Positions 1-6,154 of a stretch of DNA of 7,034 nt are shown in pieces. This stretch comes from Verrucomicrobia bacterium 12-59-8 (lineage in GTDB: Bacteria; Verrucomicrobiota; Verrucomicrobiae; Verrucomicrobiales; Verrucomicrobiaceae): assembly GCA_002279765.1 (NCBI GenBank), contig NCCR01000309.1, positions 1 to 7,034 on the forward strand, in the 5' to 3' direction. The notes below the pieces were generated by a model that was not told the origin of the DNA, did not search any database, and saw only the letters and a program-made list of their open reading frames with translations. Position 1 is the first letter of the stretch, and every line of letters starts with the position of its first letter. The translations under genes and the position numbers were made by a program.

Positions 1-364
1 GGCCGATGAACAAGATGGGGAGACCCCGCGCCTGAAACAGCGGCACAGCCAGGAGGGTCGCCACACCGAGCATCAGCCATGCGGCGATGGTTACTGTCCT
101 GGCCGGAGCTGCACCGCTGGCCGTGTTGCGTCGTGGGCCGATGCGGGCCTGCGTGTCCGCGCCTTTGATGGAATCGAGCGCGTCATTGAAGAAATTCGTC
201 GCGATTTGCAGCGCGCCGCAGCTCCCCAGTGTGCAGAGCGCGAGCGTCCAGTTGAACGTGCCTGAGATCTTCGCCGCCAGCGCACAACCTACCGCCACCG
301 GCGCGATGGCAGCCCCGAGTGTTTTCGGACGTGCGGCGGAGATCCAGTCGAAGAGGGAGGTCAT
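1..364 (-). CDS. menA: 1,4-dihydroxy-2-naphthoate polyprenyltransferase MenA (5' part, runs off the left edge)
   Basis: Integral-membrane UbiA-family prenyltransferase that attaches the polyprenyl tail to 1,4-dihydroxy-2-naphthoate in menaquinone synthesis. Only the first 121 codons are present; the family is usually about 290-310 residues. Seen in the translation: an N-terminal ARPKTL segment (residues 10-16, common in MenA), a hydrophobic stretch at about 15-31, a second at about 39-57, then the Asp-rich prenyl-diphosphate/Mg site NFFNDALDSIKGAD (57-70: N57, N60, D61, D64, D70), followed by RIGPRR (74-79) and SG (83-84). A third hydrophobic stretch lies at about 91-110. The start ATG (364-362) overlaps the TGA of the upstream haem-protein gene (363-361) as ATGA, so translation is probably coupled. 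The Asp-rich motif plus the ARPKTL and GPRR context favour MenA over UbiA or other UbiA-superfamily enzymes. The missing C-terminal half prevents final proof. Confidence 0.9.
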   Translation of the reverse strand, partial: MTSLFDWISAARPKTLGAAIAPVAVGCALAAKISGTFNWTLALCTLGSCGALQIATNFFNDALDSIKGADTQARIGPRRNTASGAAPARTVTIAAWLMLGVATLLAVPLFQARGLPILFIG

Positions 365-1449
365 TTCGGCATTTCGACCTGCCCGTTCGACATCAGGTAG
401 GCGATGAGATTTTTCACGTTCTCATCTCCGAGCGCGGAGAGCAGCCCTTCGGGCATGAGGGAAACGGGCAACTGCGCCTGCTTCACGATCTGCGTGCGCT
501 CGATGGTGATGCGTTCGGCAGGAGTCTGCACCGTGAGGGTGCGTTCGGTCTGTTCGGGGATGACGCCGGTGATGGTGCGGCCGTCTTTGAGATTGAGCAC
601 GCTGACGCGGAAGTCGGCGGGGACGACGGCGCTGGGATCGAGGATGTTTTCGAGGAGGTATTTGAGGTTGTGGCGGTCGCTGCCGGTGAGTTCGGGCCCG
701 ATGGCACCGCCCTGGCCGTAGAGCTTGTGGCAGGCGCTGCAGGCGGCCATGAAGATCATGCGCCCCTTGGCGGGATCAGCCTTGGCCACGGTGTCGGGTG
801 TCAGCAGGCCTTCCCATTTGGCGAACTCGGCTTTCTTGGCTTCGGGTGTGTCGCGGATTTCGCCCCAGGCTTCGGTGAGGAGCTTGTTCAGTGATTCATC
901 CCCCAAGCTGCGAATTTGCCGTGCTTGGAAAGGAGAGATGACCGTCGCGGGCACCTTCTTGGCCTTGATGGCTTCAAGCAGCGCCTTGGCGTAGCTGGGG
1001 CGGGAGGTCAGCGTGGCCACCGTGGCGGCCTGCTGTTCTTCGCTGCGGCCGGGCCAAGGGCTGAGCATGGCCTTGGGGATGTTGGGATCGTCATAGGCGG
1101 CCAAAGCACTACGCGAGACGGTGCCCAGCACCTTGTCATTGATCAGCCCACGAATCACCGGCAGCAGCTCCGGCTTGGCATTGCGTGTCACACTCTTAAA
1201 GGCGTTCAGTCGCGCATTCGCATCGCCCTCGACATTCTTCACAATCACGATCAGCTCGTCCGAAGCACGCCCGCTGCCAAAGACAACCGAGAGCGTTTGT
1301 ATGGTAGTCCCGGCTTTAGCCGGTTCTGGTGCGACACCGCGAACAAACTCATCCCAGCCCTTCGGCTTCTTCGCGGACCCAGCCCTTGGGCTTCTTCGCG
1401 GAGCTGAAGCCATCCAGACCTGCGGCGATGCCGGCGAGCACATCGTCAC
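361..1449 (-). CDS. C-terminal fragment: helical region and CxxCH cytochrome c-like domain
   Basis: This open frame is formally 362 codons from a GTG at 1449, but the first 24 residues are an out-of-frame reading of the N-terminal fragment. Genuine protein begins at S25 (base 1377, first base of the second repeat copy on this strand) and gives 338 residues. Visible: a linker EFVRGVAPEPAKAG (34-47) encoded by a palindromic segment, a helical region to about 215, then AACSACHKLYGQGG (235-248) with covalent haem ligands C237/C240 and axial H241. These are followed by IGPELTG, a KDGRTITGVI strand pair and SLMPEGLL, whose M332 may be the second axial ligand. This matches the C-terminal haem domain of PVC CxxCH proteins. 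It has no signal peptide of its own, so if translated separately it would remain cytoplasmic and probably not receive haem. Its stop overlaps the menA start. Confidence 0.8.
   Translation of the reverse strand: MTMCSPASPQVWMASAPRRSPRAGSAKKPKGWDEFVRGVAPEPAKAGTTIQTLSVVFGSGRASDELIVIVKNVEGDANARLNAFKSVTRNAKPELLPVIRGLINDKVLGTVSRSALAAYDDPNIPKAMLSPWPGRSEEQQAATVATLTSRPSYAKALLEAIKAKKVPATVISPFQARQIRSLGDESLNKLLTEAWGEIRDTPEAKKAEFAKWEGLLTPDTVAKADPAKGRMIFMAACSACHKLYGQGGAIGPELTGSDRHNLKYLLENILDPSAVVPADFRVSVLNLKDGRTITGVIPEQTERTLTVQTPAERITIERTQIVKQAQLPVSLMPEGLLSALGDENVKNLIAYLMSNGQVEMPK
1295..1348. repeat. 54-bp palindromic segment inside the haem gene, possible REP/MITE-like element
   Basis: The segment is bounded by GTTTGT (1295-1300) and its reverse complement ACAAAC (1343-1348). 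Inside are a perfect 6-bp hairpin, CCGGCT-TT-AGCCGG (1310-1323), and a small GGTG-CGA-CACC hairpin to its right, giving a clover-like fold. Its length is 18 codons and it keeps the gene frame, encoding the linker VRGVAPEPAKAGTT. The stem-loop layout is seen; its being a dispersed element is inferred from layout and from loose resemblance to GC-rich palindromic repeats in PVC genomes. Short palindromes also occur by chance in GC-rich coding DNA. Confidence 0.4.
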
Positions 1450-3097
1450 GCACGTCCTTCTGCGCGGTCATCAAAGCCACCAACGCATCCACGGCGGCAG
1501 GCTTGGTTTCGATCATCTCCGCGATGCGTCGTGCCACCAGACGGCGCACCGTGGGTATTTTTGCTTCGCGGATCAACTCTACGCCCTTCATCGGATCCGC
1601 CGCCACGGCAGGCTCGATGCCATACCAGATCATGAGGGGCTGCTGGCGGTCGTTGGCGTCTTCTTCGTGCTTTGCGAGAGCGGTAGCGATGGGCCAGCGC
1701 TCTTCGAGAGGAAGGCGCTGCATATCGGACGCGGTTTGAAGTCGGACGAGTCCGTCTTTGTTGCTGGCATCGGCAAGTCCGCGCAATGCACGCGGTTGGG
1801 GCCCGGTGCCTTTTTCATACTGCTGTTGCAGCTCCGTGCGTGCCCACCAGTTGTTGCTGGCAGAACGCTCCGCCTTCTTCGACTCCCCATACACAATCTT
1901 ATAAATCCGCCCGCTGGTGCGGTGGGCGCCGTCGTTGTGATGGCATTCGCCGCTGTCGCTCCAGTCGGAGACGATGACGTTGCCGTCGGGGCAGGTGAGG
2001 AGGTCGATGCCACGGAACCATTTGTCCTTGGCCTGCATGAAGTCGGGGGCGTGCTTGCCGACGTAGCCGCAGCCCTGGCGCTCCAGTTTGTCCATGTTGA
2101 TGCGGTTGCCGTGCAGGTTGCAGGTGAGGACGGCCTGATAGATGAGCATGCCGACGTGGGCGTGGCCGCCGCCGAGTTCGAGGGTTTTGTTGCTGATGCC
2201 TTTGCGGATGTCGCTCCAGCTTTCGGAGCCCGTGTCCCAGTGGAAGTGGTCGGCGGTTTGCTCAATGACTTCATACACATGCGGGTTCAAATGGGTGCCG
2301 AACATGCGGCGGTAGTAGGCGCCGGGGATCACGTGCCAGAGGTGGCCGATGACGGTGTTGATCATGAACAGCTCGCCGTCTGCGTTCCAATCGTGCCCCC
2401 AGGAGTTGGTGCCGCCGTGGGCGACGGTTTCCAAAATTTTGAGCGTGGGGTGGTAGCGCCAGATGGCGCAGTTCATCTTGATGCGCTTGTCCGCAGGCGT
2501 GCCGGGGGCACCGACACTGGAGGTGTCGGTGATGCCGTGGCGGCCATAGAGCCAGCCGTCCGGGCCCCAGCGCAGGCCGTTGACGATGTTGTGGCCGATG
2601 GTTTTCACGTTGAAGCCGTCGAGCAGCACCTCGAGTTCGCCATCTGGAATGTCGTCACCGTTTTTATCGGCGATGAAGCTAAGCGTGCCGTTGTGCAGCA
2701 CCCAGACGCCGCCGTAGCCGGTCTCTACGCTGGTGAGGTAGGCGCCGCCTTCCCAGAAGACTTTGCGCCCGTCGTGTTTGCCGTCGCCGTCCTTGTCTTC
2801 GAGGATGATGATGCGGTCACGCAGCTTGGTGTCCCAGCGCATGGGATTCTCGGCAAAGGTGTAGTTTTCCGCGACCCACAGGCGGCCCTTGGTGTCCCAG
2901 CTCATGGCGATGGGCTGCTGCACATCCGGCTCGGCGGCGAAGACCACGGCCTTGAAGCCCTTGGGCAGTTCCATGGTCCGTGCGACCTCCTCGGCAGGCA
3001 TGGGATCGCCTTTCTCGGTGTTGAAGGGCTTGGGGAACTCGTCCGCGTGCAGCGCGGTGGTGAAGGCGAGGGAGAAAAGGAGCGTGATCGGGCGCAT
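1349..3097 (-). CDS. N-terminal fragment: secreted beta-propeller dehydrogenase-like domain
   Basis: Reading frame of 582 residues. The start at 3097 was chosen because it gives a clean signal peptide (MRPITLLFSLAFTTALHA, then DE). The open frame extends further upstream to 3388, but that part runs across the divergent vapB gene and looks non-coding. The mature part resembles the N-terminal domain of PVC membrane-bound dehydrogenases, related to soluble glucose dehydrogenase/PQQ-type propellers: blade-like repeats such as GRLWVAENY (71-79), LRWGPDGWLYGRHG (175-188), a GTNSWGHDWNADGELF segment (229-244) and LLTCPDGNVIVSDW (366-379). Two Asp-rich loops, DKDGDGKHDG (101-110) and DKNGDDIPDG (144-153), look like calcium sites. 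Residues about 430-565 are helical. The frame leaves the true protein after W573 at the repeat junction and ends nine residues later (VREEAEGLG). No convincing Shine-Dalgarno sequence or promoter was seen upstream. Confidence 0.85.
   Translation of the reverse strand: MRPITLLFSLAFTTALHADEFPKPFNTEKGDPMPAEEVARTMELPKGFKAVVFAAEPDVQQPIAMSWDTKGRLWVAENYTFAENPMRWDTKLRDRIIILEDKDGDGKHDGRKVFWEGGAYLTSVETGYGGVWVLHNGTLSFIADKNGDDIPDGELEVLLDGFNVKTIGHNIVNGLRWGPDGWLYGRHGITDTSSVGAPGTPADKRIKMNCAIWRYHPTLKILETVAHGGTNSWGHDWNADGELFMINTVIGHLWHVIPGAYYRRMFGTHLNPHVYEVIEQTADHFHWDTGSESWSDIRKGISNKTLELGGGHAHVGMLIYQAVLTCNLHGNRINMDKLERQGCGYVGKHAPDFMQAKDKWFRGIDLLTCPDGNVIVSDWSDSGECHHNDGAHRTSGRIYKIVYGESKKAERSASNNWWARTELQQQYEKGTGPQPRALRGLADASNKDGLVRLQTASDMQRLPLEERWPIATALAKHEEDANDRQQPLMIWYGIEPAVAADPMKGVELIREAKIPTVRRLVARRIAEMIETKPAAVDALVALMTAQKDVRDDVLAGIAAGLDGFSSAKKPKGWVREEAEGLG
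1353..1402. repeat. 25-bp direct tandem duplication that breaks the haem-protein frame
   Basis: Copy A (1353-1377) and copy B (1378-1402) abut directly and differ at one base (C at 1363, G at 1388). On the coding strand each copy reads SAKKPKGW in its own fragment's frame, and the single difference is synonymous there (CCC versus CCG, proline). Since 25 is not a multiple of three, the second copy shifts the frame; the upstream frame then stops at 1349-1351. Confidence 0.95.
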
Positions 3098-3215: not shown

Positions 3216-3509
3216 ATGAAGCTGACGATGCATATTGATGAAGACCTGCTGGAGAGGGTGATGAAAGCCAATGACATCACCAGCAAAACCGGGGCAGTGG
3301 ACTTCGCCCTGCGGGAAGTGGACCGGCGTAGCACCTTGAAGCGGCTGGCGGAAACCAACCTCGGCCTGACCGAAAAAGAAATCCTCAACGCGTTTGATGA
3401 CCGCTACAATGTGATTGAACTGCGTGCTGCCGAAACCCCTGGCGCTGGTGCAAAGCTGCCTGAACGCAAACCTGTGACCTATGCAAAAAAGCCCCGTTCT
3501 CGTCGATAG
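3216..3509 (+). CDS. vapB: VapB-type antitoxin (ribbon-helix-helix)
   Basis: A 97-residue protein that would bind and neutralise the VapC toxin encoded next to it and repress the operon. The N-terminus resembles the VapB antitoxin family PF09957: a short beta strand, MKLTMHIDEDLLERV (1-15), a helix, then ITSKTGAVDFALREVDRR (21-38), typical of this DNA-binding fold. The middle (about 40-70) is helical. The C-terminal tail (about 72-97) is rich in Pro, Lys and Arg with little predicted structure, as expected of the part that wraps the toxin. It is a little longer than the common 65-90 residues. The start at 3216 was chosen because the family strand begins there, it is the first in-frame ATG of the conserved part, and it lies directly behind the promoter. 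Its last 29 bases overlap vapC, which suggests coupled translation. Confidence 0.85.
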   Translation: MKLTMHIDEDLLERVMKANDITSKTGAVDFALREVDRRSTLKRLAETNLGLTEKEILNAFDDRYNVIELRAAETPGAGAKLPERKPVTYAKKPRSRR

Positions 3510-3882
3510 CAGCTTCTACATCGGCATGACGCGGCAGGGGAGGAATCCGCTGCCGCTGCTCACTTACCTGGCTGTGGATCGCGATTTGGCGATCTGCGGT
3601 GTGATCCGAGCTGAAGTGGGGCGCGGCATCCGGCTCCCGAAAGTGCGAGAGGCTTTCCACGGCTTCTGGGATGTGATGATCAATGTGCAAACGGACAACA
3701 AGCTCTGGCTTCAGGCTGAAGATCTGGCGTGGAAGCTGGACCGTGGAGGCAAGATATTGCCGCTGACGGACATTGTCATCGCCTGCTGTGCCATGCGTCT
3801 TGGTGCCACCATCCTCACGCATGACCACCATTTCCTGGAGATTCCCGGCATCCATGTGGCGATGAGCGGCGATGATCTGTGA
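3481..3882 (+). CDS. vapC: VapC-type PIN-domain ribonuclease toxin
   Basis: A 133-residue PIN-domain protein, the normal length for VapC, expected to cut specific RNA (often tRNA or rRNA) when free of antitoxin. The acidic metal-binding residues are all present: D9 in PVLVDSS, E45 in VIRAEVGRG, D97 in PLTDIVIA and D115 in ILTHDHHF. The toxin is therefore predicted to be active. The last is followed by FLEIPGI, the usual end of the fold. It starts inside the vapB tail in another frame (29-base overlap) and has no clear Shine-Dalgarno sequence, so it probably depends on translation of vapB. The target RNA cannot be told from the sequence. The pair sits between unrelated housekeeping-like genes, with no transposase or attachment site in view. 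Confidence 0.92.
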   Translation: MQKSPVLVDSSFYIGMTRQGRNPLPLLTYLAVDRDLAICGVIRAEVGRGIRLPKVREAFHGFWDVMINVQTDNKLWLQAEDLAWKLDRGGKILPLTDIVIACCAMRLGATILTHDHHFLEIPGIHVAMSGDDL

Positions 3883-3928
3883 TGCATGGAAGTGCTCGCG
3901 TGGCGCGTTTCTTGCATCAAGTTCCGCC

Positions 3929-6154
3929 ATGCGCACGGTTTGCCTTCTCCTCTTCACCAGCCTGCTGATTGGTCAGGCAGACGCGGCCTCGAAATCGAAG
4001 GCTGCCTCCAAGCCGACGCCACCTCCCGCCCACACCGCCGCTGAACTGGCTGAGGCGATCCGCCCGTCTTTGGTCAAGATTACGCAGCTTGGGCGTGAAG
4101 GCACGGATGGGATCGGCTCTGGATTCATTGTGAGCGAGGACGGCCTGATCGCCACGAACCTGCATGTCATCGGCGAGGCGAGGCGTCTGCAAATCGAGAT
4201 GCATGACGGCAAGACGCATGAGGTCACCGTCGTGCAGGCGAGCGACAGCCATCTGGATCTCGCGCTGCTGAAAATCGACGCGAAGGGGCTCAAGCCGCTG
4301 CCATTGGGAGATTCCAGCAAAGTCCAGCAGGGGGAACCCATCGTGGCCATGGGCGCACCGGAGGGGCTTGGCTTCAGCATCGTGCAGGGCGTGCTGTCCG
4401 CCACGCGGGATATCGACGGCCAGGAAATGCTGCAGGTGGCGGTGCCGATTGAGAAGGGGAACAGCGGCGGCCCCTTGCTGGACATGCAGGGGAATGTGCT
4501 GGGCCTGCTGACGCTGAAGTCGCTCAAGACGGACAACCTTGGCTTTGCGATGCCGGTGAACGAGCTCAAAACGCTGATCGAAAAACCGAACCCCGTGCCG
4601 ATGTCGCGCTGGCTGACCATCGGCGTGCTCAATCCGAAGATGTGGAAGAGCCACCTCGGCGCGCAGTGGACGCAGCATGCGGGCGTCATTCGCTCCGAGT
4701 TTTCGGGTGCGGGTTTTGGCGGGCGAGCGCTCTGCCTTTCCACGCAGAAGGTGCCCGAGGAAACTTTTGAGATCGCCACCACGGTGCATCTCGATGACGA
4801 ATCTGGTGCTGCGGGACTGACGTTCTGCGCGGACGGCGGCGACAAGCACTACGGGTTTTATCCTTCCGGCGGCAAGCTGAGGCTCACGCGCTTCAACGGT
4901 CCCGATGTGTATTCGTGGACCATCCTGGCTGATGTGCCGAGCGATGCGTATAAGGCCGGTGAATGGAATGTGCTGCGTGTTCGCGTGGAGCCGGAGCGCA
5001 TCGTCTGCTTCGTGAATGGGAAGCAGGTGATCGAAAGCGATGACACCGGGCTGCGCGGCGGCTCTGCGGGGCTGTGCAAGTTTAGAACCACGGTGGCGCA
5101 GTTTCGCAGCTTCAGCATTGGCACGGACCTCGCGGAAAAGCCGCTGCAGCCGGAAGTGGCCGCGCAAATGCGCACGAAGGTGGAGGAGTACATCACTGCA
5201 GCAACCACGGCTGACAAAACGCTGGAAGGCCTGCTGGAAAATCCTGCGGCTGCCAGGCGTGTGCTGGTGGAACAGCGCCGCAAACTGGAAGAAGAGGCCG
5301 CGAAACTGCGCGAACTTGAGCGCGAACTGCACCGGCGTGCGATGACGAAGGAGATTCTGGCGGAACTGAGCAAGCCCGAGCCGGAGATCAACCTGCTGCG
5401 CTGTGCGCTGCTGCTGGCACGACACGACAATCCGGAGATCGACATCGGCACCTATTTGACCAGCTTTAAAGCGATGGTGCTGGATCTCAAAGACGATCCT
5501 GAAATCAAAGCGGGTACGATTTCCGCAGTGAAGCGTCTCAACCGCTACCTCTTTGAGGAAAACGGCTTTCATGGCAGCCGTGGCGACTATAGCAGCCGCT
5601 CCAACAGCTACGTCAACGAAGTGCTGGACGACCGCGAAGGACTGCCCATCACGCTGAGCATGCTCTACGTGGAGCTCGCTTCCGCGCTGGGTGTGCAGGG
5701 GGTGTTTGGCGTGCCGCTGCCGGGCAAATTCATGGTGGGGTATCGCAATGGGCCGGAGGGCGAGCTGCAACTGGTGGATGTGTTTGAGCATGGCAAGCTG
5801 GTCACCGTGGAGCAGGCGGCGCTGGACCTCACGGAGGACGGGCATTTCCCGGAAGGAGCGCTGGCACCGACGACCAAGCAGATCATTCTGCTGCGCATGC
5901 TGCGCAATCTGATGAGCAGTGTGTTTGAGGACAGCCGTTCATTACGCGAGTCGCTGCCGTATTTGAATCTCTTCCTCGCCATCGATCCGCAGGCCGCACC
6001 GGAACGGCTGACGCGTGCGCAACTGCGGCAGCGCCTTGGCGAGAAAGCCGGCGCACGTGAGGACGTGAGCTGGCTGATCGACAATTTTCCCGCCGATGGG
6101 CCGGCCCCGCTCATGCAGCAACTGGATCAATGGATGCAGGCGCTGAGGGAGTAG
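3929..6154 (+). CDS. Exported HtrA-like serine protease / LamG-like / SirB1-like fusion protein
   Basis: A 741-residue protein. The start at 3929 gives a clear signal peptide (MRTVCLLLFTSLLIGQADA, then ASKSK); a longer frame from 3872 would put 19 polar residues before it and overlap vapC. After a Pro/Ala/Lys linker (20-36) comes a trypsin-like S1C (HtrA/Deg) domain at about 37-220 with the complete triad H79 (TNLHVI), D110 (DLALLKI) and S179 (GNSGGPL). No PDZ domain follows. Instead, about 255-398 looks like a LamG/DUF1080 beta-sandwich (HYGFYPSGGKLRL, EWNVLRVRVE, CFVNGKQV). A charged coiled coil is at about 440-472. Residues about 485-620 resemble the SirB1 transglutaminase-like fold (RYLFEENGF, NSYVNEVLDDREGLPITLSMLYVELA), and 650-741 the TPR-like tail of that family. 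It likely acts outside the cytoplasm in protein quality control or processing; the substrate is unknown. It begins 46 bp after vapC, with no terminator seen between. Confidence 0.82.
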   Translation: MRTVCLLLFTSLLIGQADAASKSKAASKPTPPPAHTAAELAEAIRPSLVKITQLGREGTDGIGSGFIVSEDGLIATNLHVIGEARRLQIEMHDGKTHEVTVVQASDSHLDLALLKIDAKGLKPLPLGDSSKVQQGEPIVAMGAPEGLGFSIVQGVLSATRDIDGQEMLQVAVPIEKGNSGGPLLDMQGNVLGLLTLKSLKTDNLGFAMPVNELKTLIEKPNPVPMSRWLTIGVLNPKMWKSHLGAQWTQHAGVIRSEFSGAGFGGRALCLSTQKVPEETFEIATTVHLDDESGAAGLTFCADGGDKHYGFYPSGGKLRLTRFNGPDVYSWTILADVPSDAYKAGEWNVLRVRVEPERIVCFVNGKQVIESDDTGLRGGSAGLCKFRTTVAQFRSFSIGTDLAEKPLQPEVAAQMRTKVEEYITAATTADKTLEGLLENPAAARRVLVEQRRKLEEEAAKLRELERELHRRAMTKEILAELSKPEPEINLLRCALLLARHDNPEIDIGTYLTSFKAMVLDLKDDPEIKAGTISAVKRLNRYLFEENGFHGSRGDYSSRSNSYVNEVLDDREGLPITLSMLYVELASALGVQGVFGVPLPGKFMVGYRNGPEGELQLVDVFEHGKLVTVEQAALDLTEDGHFPEGALAPTTKQIILLRMLRNLMSSVFEDSRSLRESLPYLNLFLAIDPQAAPERLTRAQLRQRLGEKAGAREDVSWLIDNFPADGPAPLMQQLDQWMQALRE

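Follow-up and report, generated by a model that had tools for sequence, protein, structure and literature searches.

What does it mean when a gene that is kept under purifying selection is found cut into two reading frames by a short tandem duplication? The question is raised by a stretch of 7,034 nucleotides (contig NCCR01000309.1, assembly GCA_002279765.1, Verrucomicrobia bacterium 12-59-8), here called the window, which encodes on its minus strand a PVC-type haem protein whose two domains now lie in two different frames. An earlier note, made from the sequence alone, had proposed that the duplication could be a reversible on/off switch of an exported protein. The comparison with relatives points instead, with confidence that is about evenly balanced, to one recent accident, and not to a switch: the frame would have been broken once, in a loop that tolerates change and is prone to recombination, within an exported haem protein that is otherwise functional and conserved. 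The features of the split gene, in coding order, are the following.

1349..3097, minus strand: N-terminal fragment, with a signal peptide (by eye), the TIGR02604/DUF7133 propeller and the start of the solenoid; it ends after a frameshifted tail
1886..2959, minus strand: TIGR02604 (Piru_Ver_Nterm) match, 359.5 bits (curated cut-off 122.2)
361..1449, minus strand: C-terminal open frame, with the remaining solenoid and the haem domain; no signal peptide (by eye)
GTG 1449, ATG 1443 and ATG 1413, minus strand: possible starts of the C-terminal frame, read from the sequence
1378..1402, minus strand: repeat copy lying upstream in the coding sense, Pro codon CCC
1353..1377, minus strand: repeat copy lying downstream in the coding sense, Pro codon CCG
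388..780, minus strand: TIGR02603 haem-binding domain match, 126.6 bits (curated cut-off 68.15)
727..741, minus strand: CSACH haem-binding motif, read from the sequence

The duplication and the frame break

Tandem Repeats Finder reports at 1353-1402 an array of period 25, with 2.0 copies and a 96% match, which has the top score among the five arrays of the window, and a separate repeat search returns the same two 25-bp copies, confirming the duplication that had been described. Their sole difference is C at 1363 versus G at 1388. Both copies encode SAKKPKGW on the minus strand, each in the frame of its own fragment, CCG and CCC both specifying Pro. Since 25 is 8 × 3 + 1, the reading frame shifts after the duplicated unit, and the coding length minus one unit is 2709 nt, or 903 codons, which bears out the predicted single protein of 903 residues. 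The frames of the two fragments overlap at 1349-1449. Both family matches exceed their cut-offs, so that the assignment to the PVC haem proteins with a propeller holds; the two domains, which in members of the family share one polypeptide, are here in two frames.

A doubling of this kind is unusual rather than a chance likeness, because the same program (period 10-80, match at least 90%) finds 15 two-copy tandems in 77 relative loci, the longest period not divisible by 3 being 16. The doubled 50-mer has no exact match in the viral contigs searched, and the 351-base region around it has none in the plasmids searched. The duplicated region folds no better than its shuffles (z -0.68), and a hairpin pairing 1337-1346 with 1367-1376 (90%) was rejected, as it is at chance level by our own estimate.

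The 77 loci are the best of 270 relatives found; the closest belong to verrucomicrobial metagenome-assembled genomes with 82-85% DNA identity, and the window lies near Prosthecobacter. Both gene parts are in a single open reading frame (ORF) in all 68 loci that match both, 51 of which closely cover both edges of the loop that holds the duplication. The other nine match the N-terminal part only: in six the contig stops short of the loop, and three, from distant relatives, show no match to the C-terminal part. The same split as two separate genes, for which the earlier note had advised looking in close relatives, occurs in none of the 68.

At the protein level, the best 120 of 7009 matches to the N-terminal part (7997 candidates scored) have a length of 893-1017 residues in 118 cases, and the remaining two, of 705 and 726 residues, come from contigs only 3.8 and 7.7 kb long. 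A second SAKKPKGW-like motif is found in none of these 120 nearest proteins listed: it occurs once in 100 and goes unrecognised by the pattern in 20. The closest proteins listed are 91% identical over the N-terminal part and 93% over the C-terminal part, and the comparisons therefore reach other species only. The search with the C-terminal fragment (best 120 of 535 matches) lists many short proteins; the 52 of them inspected (P0121-P0172) have varying starts, many on short contigs, and look like contig ends, a genuine split among them being possible.

Selection and age of the break

The gene shows no sign of decay beyond the break. Measured between the window and each of eight relatives, the Nei-Gojobori ratio of nonsynonymous to synonymous change (omega) is 0.07-0.10 in the N-terminal part and 0.03-0.07 in the C-terminal part, no higher than the 0.08-0.15 of the whole gene in seven intact pairs of relatives, and neither a further stop nor a further frameshift is present. 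The claim that decay elsewhere in the gene is not apparent is thereby upheld. The related claim that both halves keep all expected motifs is true as well, but a signal peptide is missing from the C-terminal half (by eye), and the break appears to fall within the solenoid.

Three-way comparisons give the same picture. Sixteen were made, four relatives by four outgroups over 894 codons, with taxa shared between comparisons, and the protein changes summed over them are 445 unique to the window versus 491 unique to the relative (L001, 103 vs 107; L025, 103 vs 148; L024, 109 vs 143). Synonymous changes unique to the window outnumber those of the relative in 14 of the 16, and this excess without an excess of protein changes indicates that the lineage is long and that the protein is not decaying. 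If the one substitution in 50 bp of the duplication (0.02 per site) is read as a neutral age, our own rates predict some 40 additional protein changes and 2.4 stops; no stop is seen in the gene beyond the break, which makes a long neutral decay unlikely. With both halves under purifying selection, the break is therefore either very young or not real, and the mismatch was either brought by a duplication drawing on two alleles, or is an early chance mutation, or marks the stretch as an assembly join.

A hypervariable loop that holds palindromes

The duplication lies in a loop that also holds a repetitive extragenic palindromic (REP) element.

1285..1408, minus strand: hypervariable loop between solenoid helices, holding the REP and the duplication (from relatives and a structural model)
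1304..1323, plus strand: REP palindrome with a GTAG foot, GTAGTCCCGGCTTTAGCCGG, translated in frame on the minus strand as PAKAGTT

In relatives the loop measures 27-56 residues (116 of 120 proteins delimited). An AlphaFold2 model of the relative P0003 places it in the helical solenoid, where it is flanked by helices 557-571 and 600-608; a short helix occupies 583-590, and the predicted local distance difference test score (pLDDT) is below 50 at residues 593-597; the model is modest (mean pLDDT 61.6, propeller poor) and serves for placing the loop only. With modest confidence, the break thus appears to fall within the helical solenoid and not between domains.

The element at 1304-1323 has the layout GTAG-TC-CCGGCT-TT-AGCCGG, with GTAG at the foot of the palindrome, and its single-strand hairpin is more stable than most shuffles (z -2.58; 4 of 200 fold equally well). 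GTAG-footed palindromes occur in 15 of 44 delimited loops of relatives (L001, L004, L005, L013, L016, L017, L019, L022, L024, L025, L027, L031, L032, L034 and L037), amounting to 22 elements or 4.36 per kb, compared with two in 87 kb of the same ORFs upstream of the loop, none in 38 kb downstream, and a mean of 0.22, at most one, in letter-shuffled loops. Among other feet, GGAG is found in three loops (seven elements upstream) and GTGG in six (12 upstream), while CATG and ACGT are found in no loop (five and six upstream). REP-like peptides (PAKAGTT, ERAKARTT, VVRASAR, VVPPSGG, TGILP) are present in 34 of 116 loops and nowhere else in these proteins. An earlier test for shared 16-mers (linker 3.1%, upstream 2.1%, downstream 1.7%) was uninformative, because paralogous genes remained in its background, and was replaced by this structural palindrome test.

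The content of the loop turns over rapidly between species. The sister loci L001 and L004 carry different REP families, and a rapid protein tree with 42 rows, built with the loop excluded, calls for at least 15 changes of element label and at least nine of element presence; this count includes types F and G, whose dispersal is unproven, rests on Shimodaira-Hasegawa-like approximate likelihood ratio support only with ten forks open, and would be inflated by cross-species exchange. In the same loop of another species (L031, 5122-5185), a REP-holding unit of 30 bp is tandemly doubled in frame. The enrichment shows for certain that the loop tolerates palindromes, and only possibly that it is a preferred REP target, since selection would remove insertions at other places in the gene.

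Dispersal of the elements and candidate transposases

Single in the window, GTAGTCCCGGCTTTAGCCGG (at most one mismatch) has 7-55 copies in each of seven relatives' genomes out of seven, with none for the reversed control, and a second REP family has 7-41 copies in each of six genomes, its reversed pattern being absent. Other candidates for dispersed elements are less convincing or were rejected: element F, CTCCAAYACTCCATCACTCC, has 1-5 copies, and only one in three of six genomes; element D has ten in one genome, one (in its own loop) in a second and none in a third, where another element occupies the loop; and the 18-base flank between the REP and the duplication has one exact place, the loop, in three of four genomes. 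With one mismatch allowed, this flank, which is not a dispersed repeat, has three further places in total, versus five for the reversed control.

Paralogues apparently also carry translated REPs in the corresponding loop. Relatives hold many of these genes, with 52-64 TIGR02604 matches per genome in all three examined (one gene may yield several). At L109, which by position is in a TIGR02604 paralogue, a loop that by motif corresponds to that of the window gene (AKPEAWEGF...PERAKARTRYAEPAKAGTT...ELSILFGDGR) contains two translated REPs. A nearly identical sequence occurs at L082, in another genome, and the REP at L103 apparently lies in frame within yet another paralogue. Of 55 REP places in genome G007, 19 were inspected (not a random sample), and five lie in open frames with at least 100 codons on each side, some of which may be spurious.

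REP-associated tyrosine transposases (RAYTs) are candidates for mobilising these elements. NF047646, the model for REP-associated transposases, matches in all eight relatives' genomes, above its cut-off in six; six of 14 control genomes also match, one above the cut-off. There are 5-34 RAYT matches per genome (G001, G004-G010), many of them weak and maybe other Y1 transposases. In one of the 16 transposase loci fetched, L100 (78.6 bits, below the cut-off of 80), the match has a GTAGTCCCGGCTTTAGCCGG-type REP on one side and a related C type on the other; at L093 a GTAGTCCCGGCTTTAGCCGG-type REP lies about 1.35 kb from the match; L086, L087, L095 and L097 have other GTAG hairpins near it, and ten of the 16 have none. 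It is tentatively proposed, as an unlikely extension, that the loop is a standing landing and exchange site for RAYT-mobilised REPs, continually rewritten in frame in orthologues and paralogues, with the window as an out-of-frame by-product. If so, the break would be a natural failure that exposes REP-driven turnover of the loop.

Origin of the two copies and rival explanations

Both versions of the Pro codon at the mismatch are natural: in the 20 loci where the motif is found, it is CCG in 14, CCC in five and CCT in one. In a comparison with eight relatives, to which the window is 84% identical overall, its longest identical run starts at the REP and enters the first copy, reaching 58 bp with L024 and 67 bp with L025 (1304-1370; by eye 71, to 1374). 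The 71-bp stretch includes the first 22 bases of the copy at 1353-1377 and stops three bases short of the copy boundary. Near-perfect short stretches shared with different species (L009 at 1202-1261, L025 at 1304-1374) in a gene of about 84% identity suggest mosaic exchange.

Under the favoured explanation of a young accident, a piece of loop like that of L025, carrying CCG, may have entered by homologous exchange while the resident flank kept CCC; if its end was then joined one unit out of register in the cell, both SAKKPKGW versions would be retained. A plainer variant would be slippage followed by a point mutation; both this variant and an assembly join of two alleles fit almost as well as the route by homologous exchange. 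The gene would then yield a shortened propeller protein that lacks the haem domain, a defect perhaps masked by the related proteins that are numerous in relatives.

Several observations weigh against this explanation. The longest identical run is located outside the loop in six of the eight relatives, and patches of near-identity are found outside the loop too, L009 being exceptionally similar to the window at 1202-1261 (100% over 1232-1261). Both copies end in GCGGA, where L025 has GCAGT and L001 and L024 have GCAGA; the copy ends match one another but differ from these relatives, a pattern that slippage fits better than an incoming L025-like piece. The unit ends have no microhomology, of which slippage usually makes use. 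Compared with L004, the window has more unique protein changes (130 vs 93). A genuine mutation and an assembly join are not distinguished by an assembled sequence and relatives of other species.

Such a join, in which two contig ends or strain haplotypes with a 25-bp overlap were placed end to end and the C/G polymorphism blocked their merging, is quite possible, if somewhat short of even. It would explain a synonymous mismatch whose two codons are both natural in relatives, a gene without decay, the lack of microhomology and the frame kept in 68 of 68 relatives. The earlier note had held the synonymous mismatch to argue somewhat against an artefact; it is no such argument, because CCG and CCC both occur in relatives and fit two alleles joined end to end. 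On the other side, the remaining genes of the window are open, so that the assembly is not generally poor, and long-k-mer assemblers need reads that span the junction. That the 25-bp unit instead expands and contracts, toggling the haem protein, is very improbable. In its favour, the directly repeated unit has a length that is no multiple of 3 and shifts the frame of an exported protein, selection is still visible, and L031 offers its in-frame duplication in the same loop. Against it, the tract is not a multi-copy array of a short unit but just two copies of a complex, mismatched 25-mer, a second unit occurs in none of the 100 recognised proteins (20 unrecognised; all from other species), and no frame-breaking form is present in the 68 loci. 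The proposed reversible switching is not supported on these grounds.

Least probable of the explanations considered is a functional split, into two proteins or with recoding to a full-length one. The frames overlap and the downstream frame offers ATG 1443 and ATG 1413, but not one of the 68 loci shows the split, the overlapping ATGA at the stop is outside the downstream frame, the ribosome-binding context is weak by eye, and the break appears, from the modest model, to lie inside the solenoid. Attachment of haem to CxxCH requires export, and the downstream piece, being without a signal peptide (by eye), would keep its CxxCH in the cytoplasm. Taken as an ordinary frame loss or an assembly join, the duplication removes the supposed on/off switch. 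Of greater interest is the loop, a short site at which members of a large and little-studied protein family hold different mobile palindromes in different species, almost none being found in the rest of the same genes. It serves as a natural experiment, showing how mobile, non-coding DNA can turn into protein sequence and which sites of a protein can accommodate it.

Neighbouring genes

A VapBC-like pair at 3216-3882 (antitoxin-like frame 3216-3509, by eye; PIN domain 3481-3882) lies between the haem gene and a protease gene, with a palindrome of operator-like appearance, ATGGCATGAATGCCAT, just upstream; L001 and L002 align unbroken across this region. The protease gene (3872-6154) encodes a protein of 760 residues with trypsin-like and transglutaminase-like domains in one chain, which also adjoins the haem gene in L001, L002 and L010.

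Comparison with known systems

The window gene has the same domains in the same order as the PVC-type haem-binding CxxCH proteins of its relatives (NCBIfam TIGR02604 and TIGR02603; Pfam DUF7133 and cytochrome c), and differs from them in being split into two frames by the duplication. With slipped-strand phase-variable genes it shares a tandem repeat whose copy number alters the frame; the examples in PMC3711429 are homopolymers and AGTC repeated more than 30 times, variable-number tandem repeats being also named in general terms. Unlike such genes, it has two copies of a complex unit, and no variation is seen in relatives.

For the palindromes, no title or abstract opening among the open-licence papers listed on verrucomicrobial REPs or phase variation concerns REPs in haem proteins, the main text of a 2025 REP survey (PMC12306157) mentions neither Verrucomicrobia nor intragenic REPs, and "heme" and "cytochrome" do not occur in the main text of PMC3733652 (2013). 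RAYT genes flanked by GTAG REPs are described in PMC2817692. Rickettsia palindromic elements are likewise palindromic DNA translated in frame within proteins, but they belong to another sequence class (CGTC, according to PMC3733652) and to other hosts. The closest parallel is found in PMC3733652, which describes intragenic GTAG REPs read through in conserved genes of O. terrae, a verrucomicrobium with the highest number, and of others, and proposes flexible linkers or loops as their sites. The elements described here resemble them in the GTAG foot, the palindrome, the dispersed copies and the in-frame read-through inside conserved genes, and differ from those described there in that a single loop of one protein family, in orthologues and apparently also in paralogues, holds several REP families.
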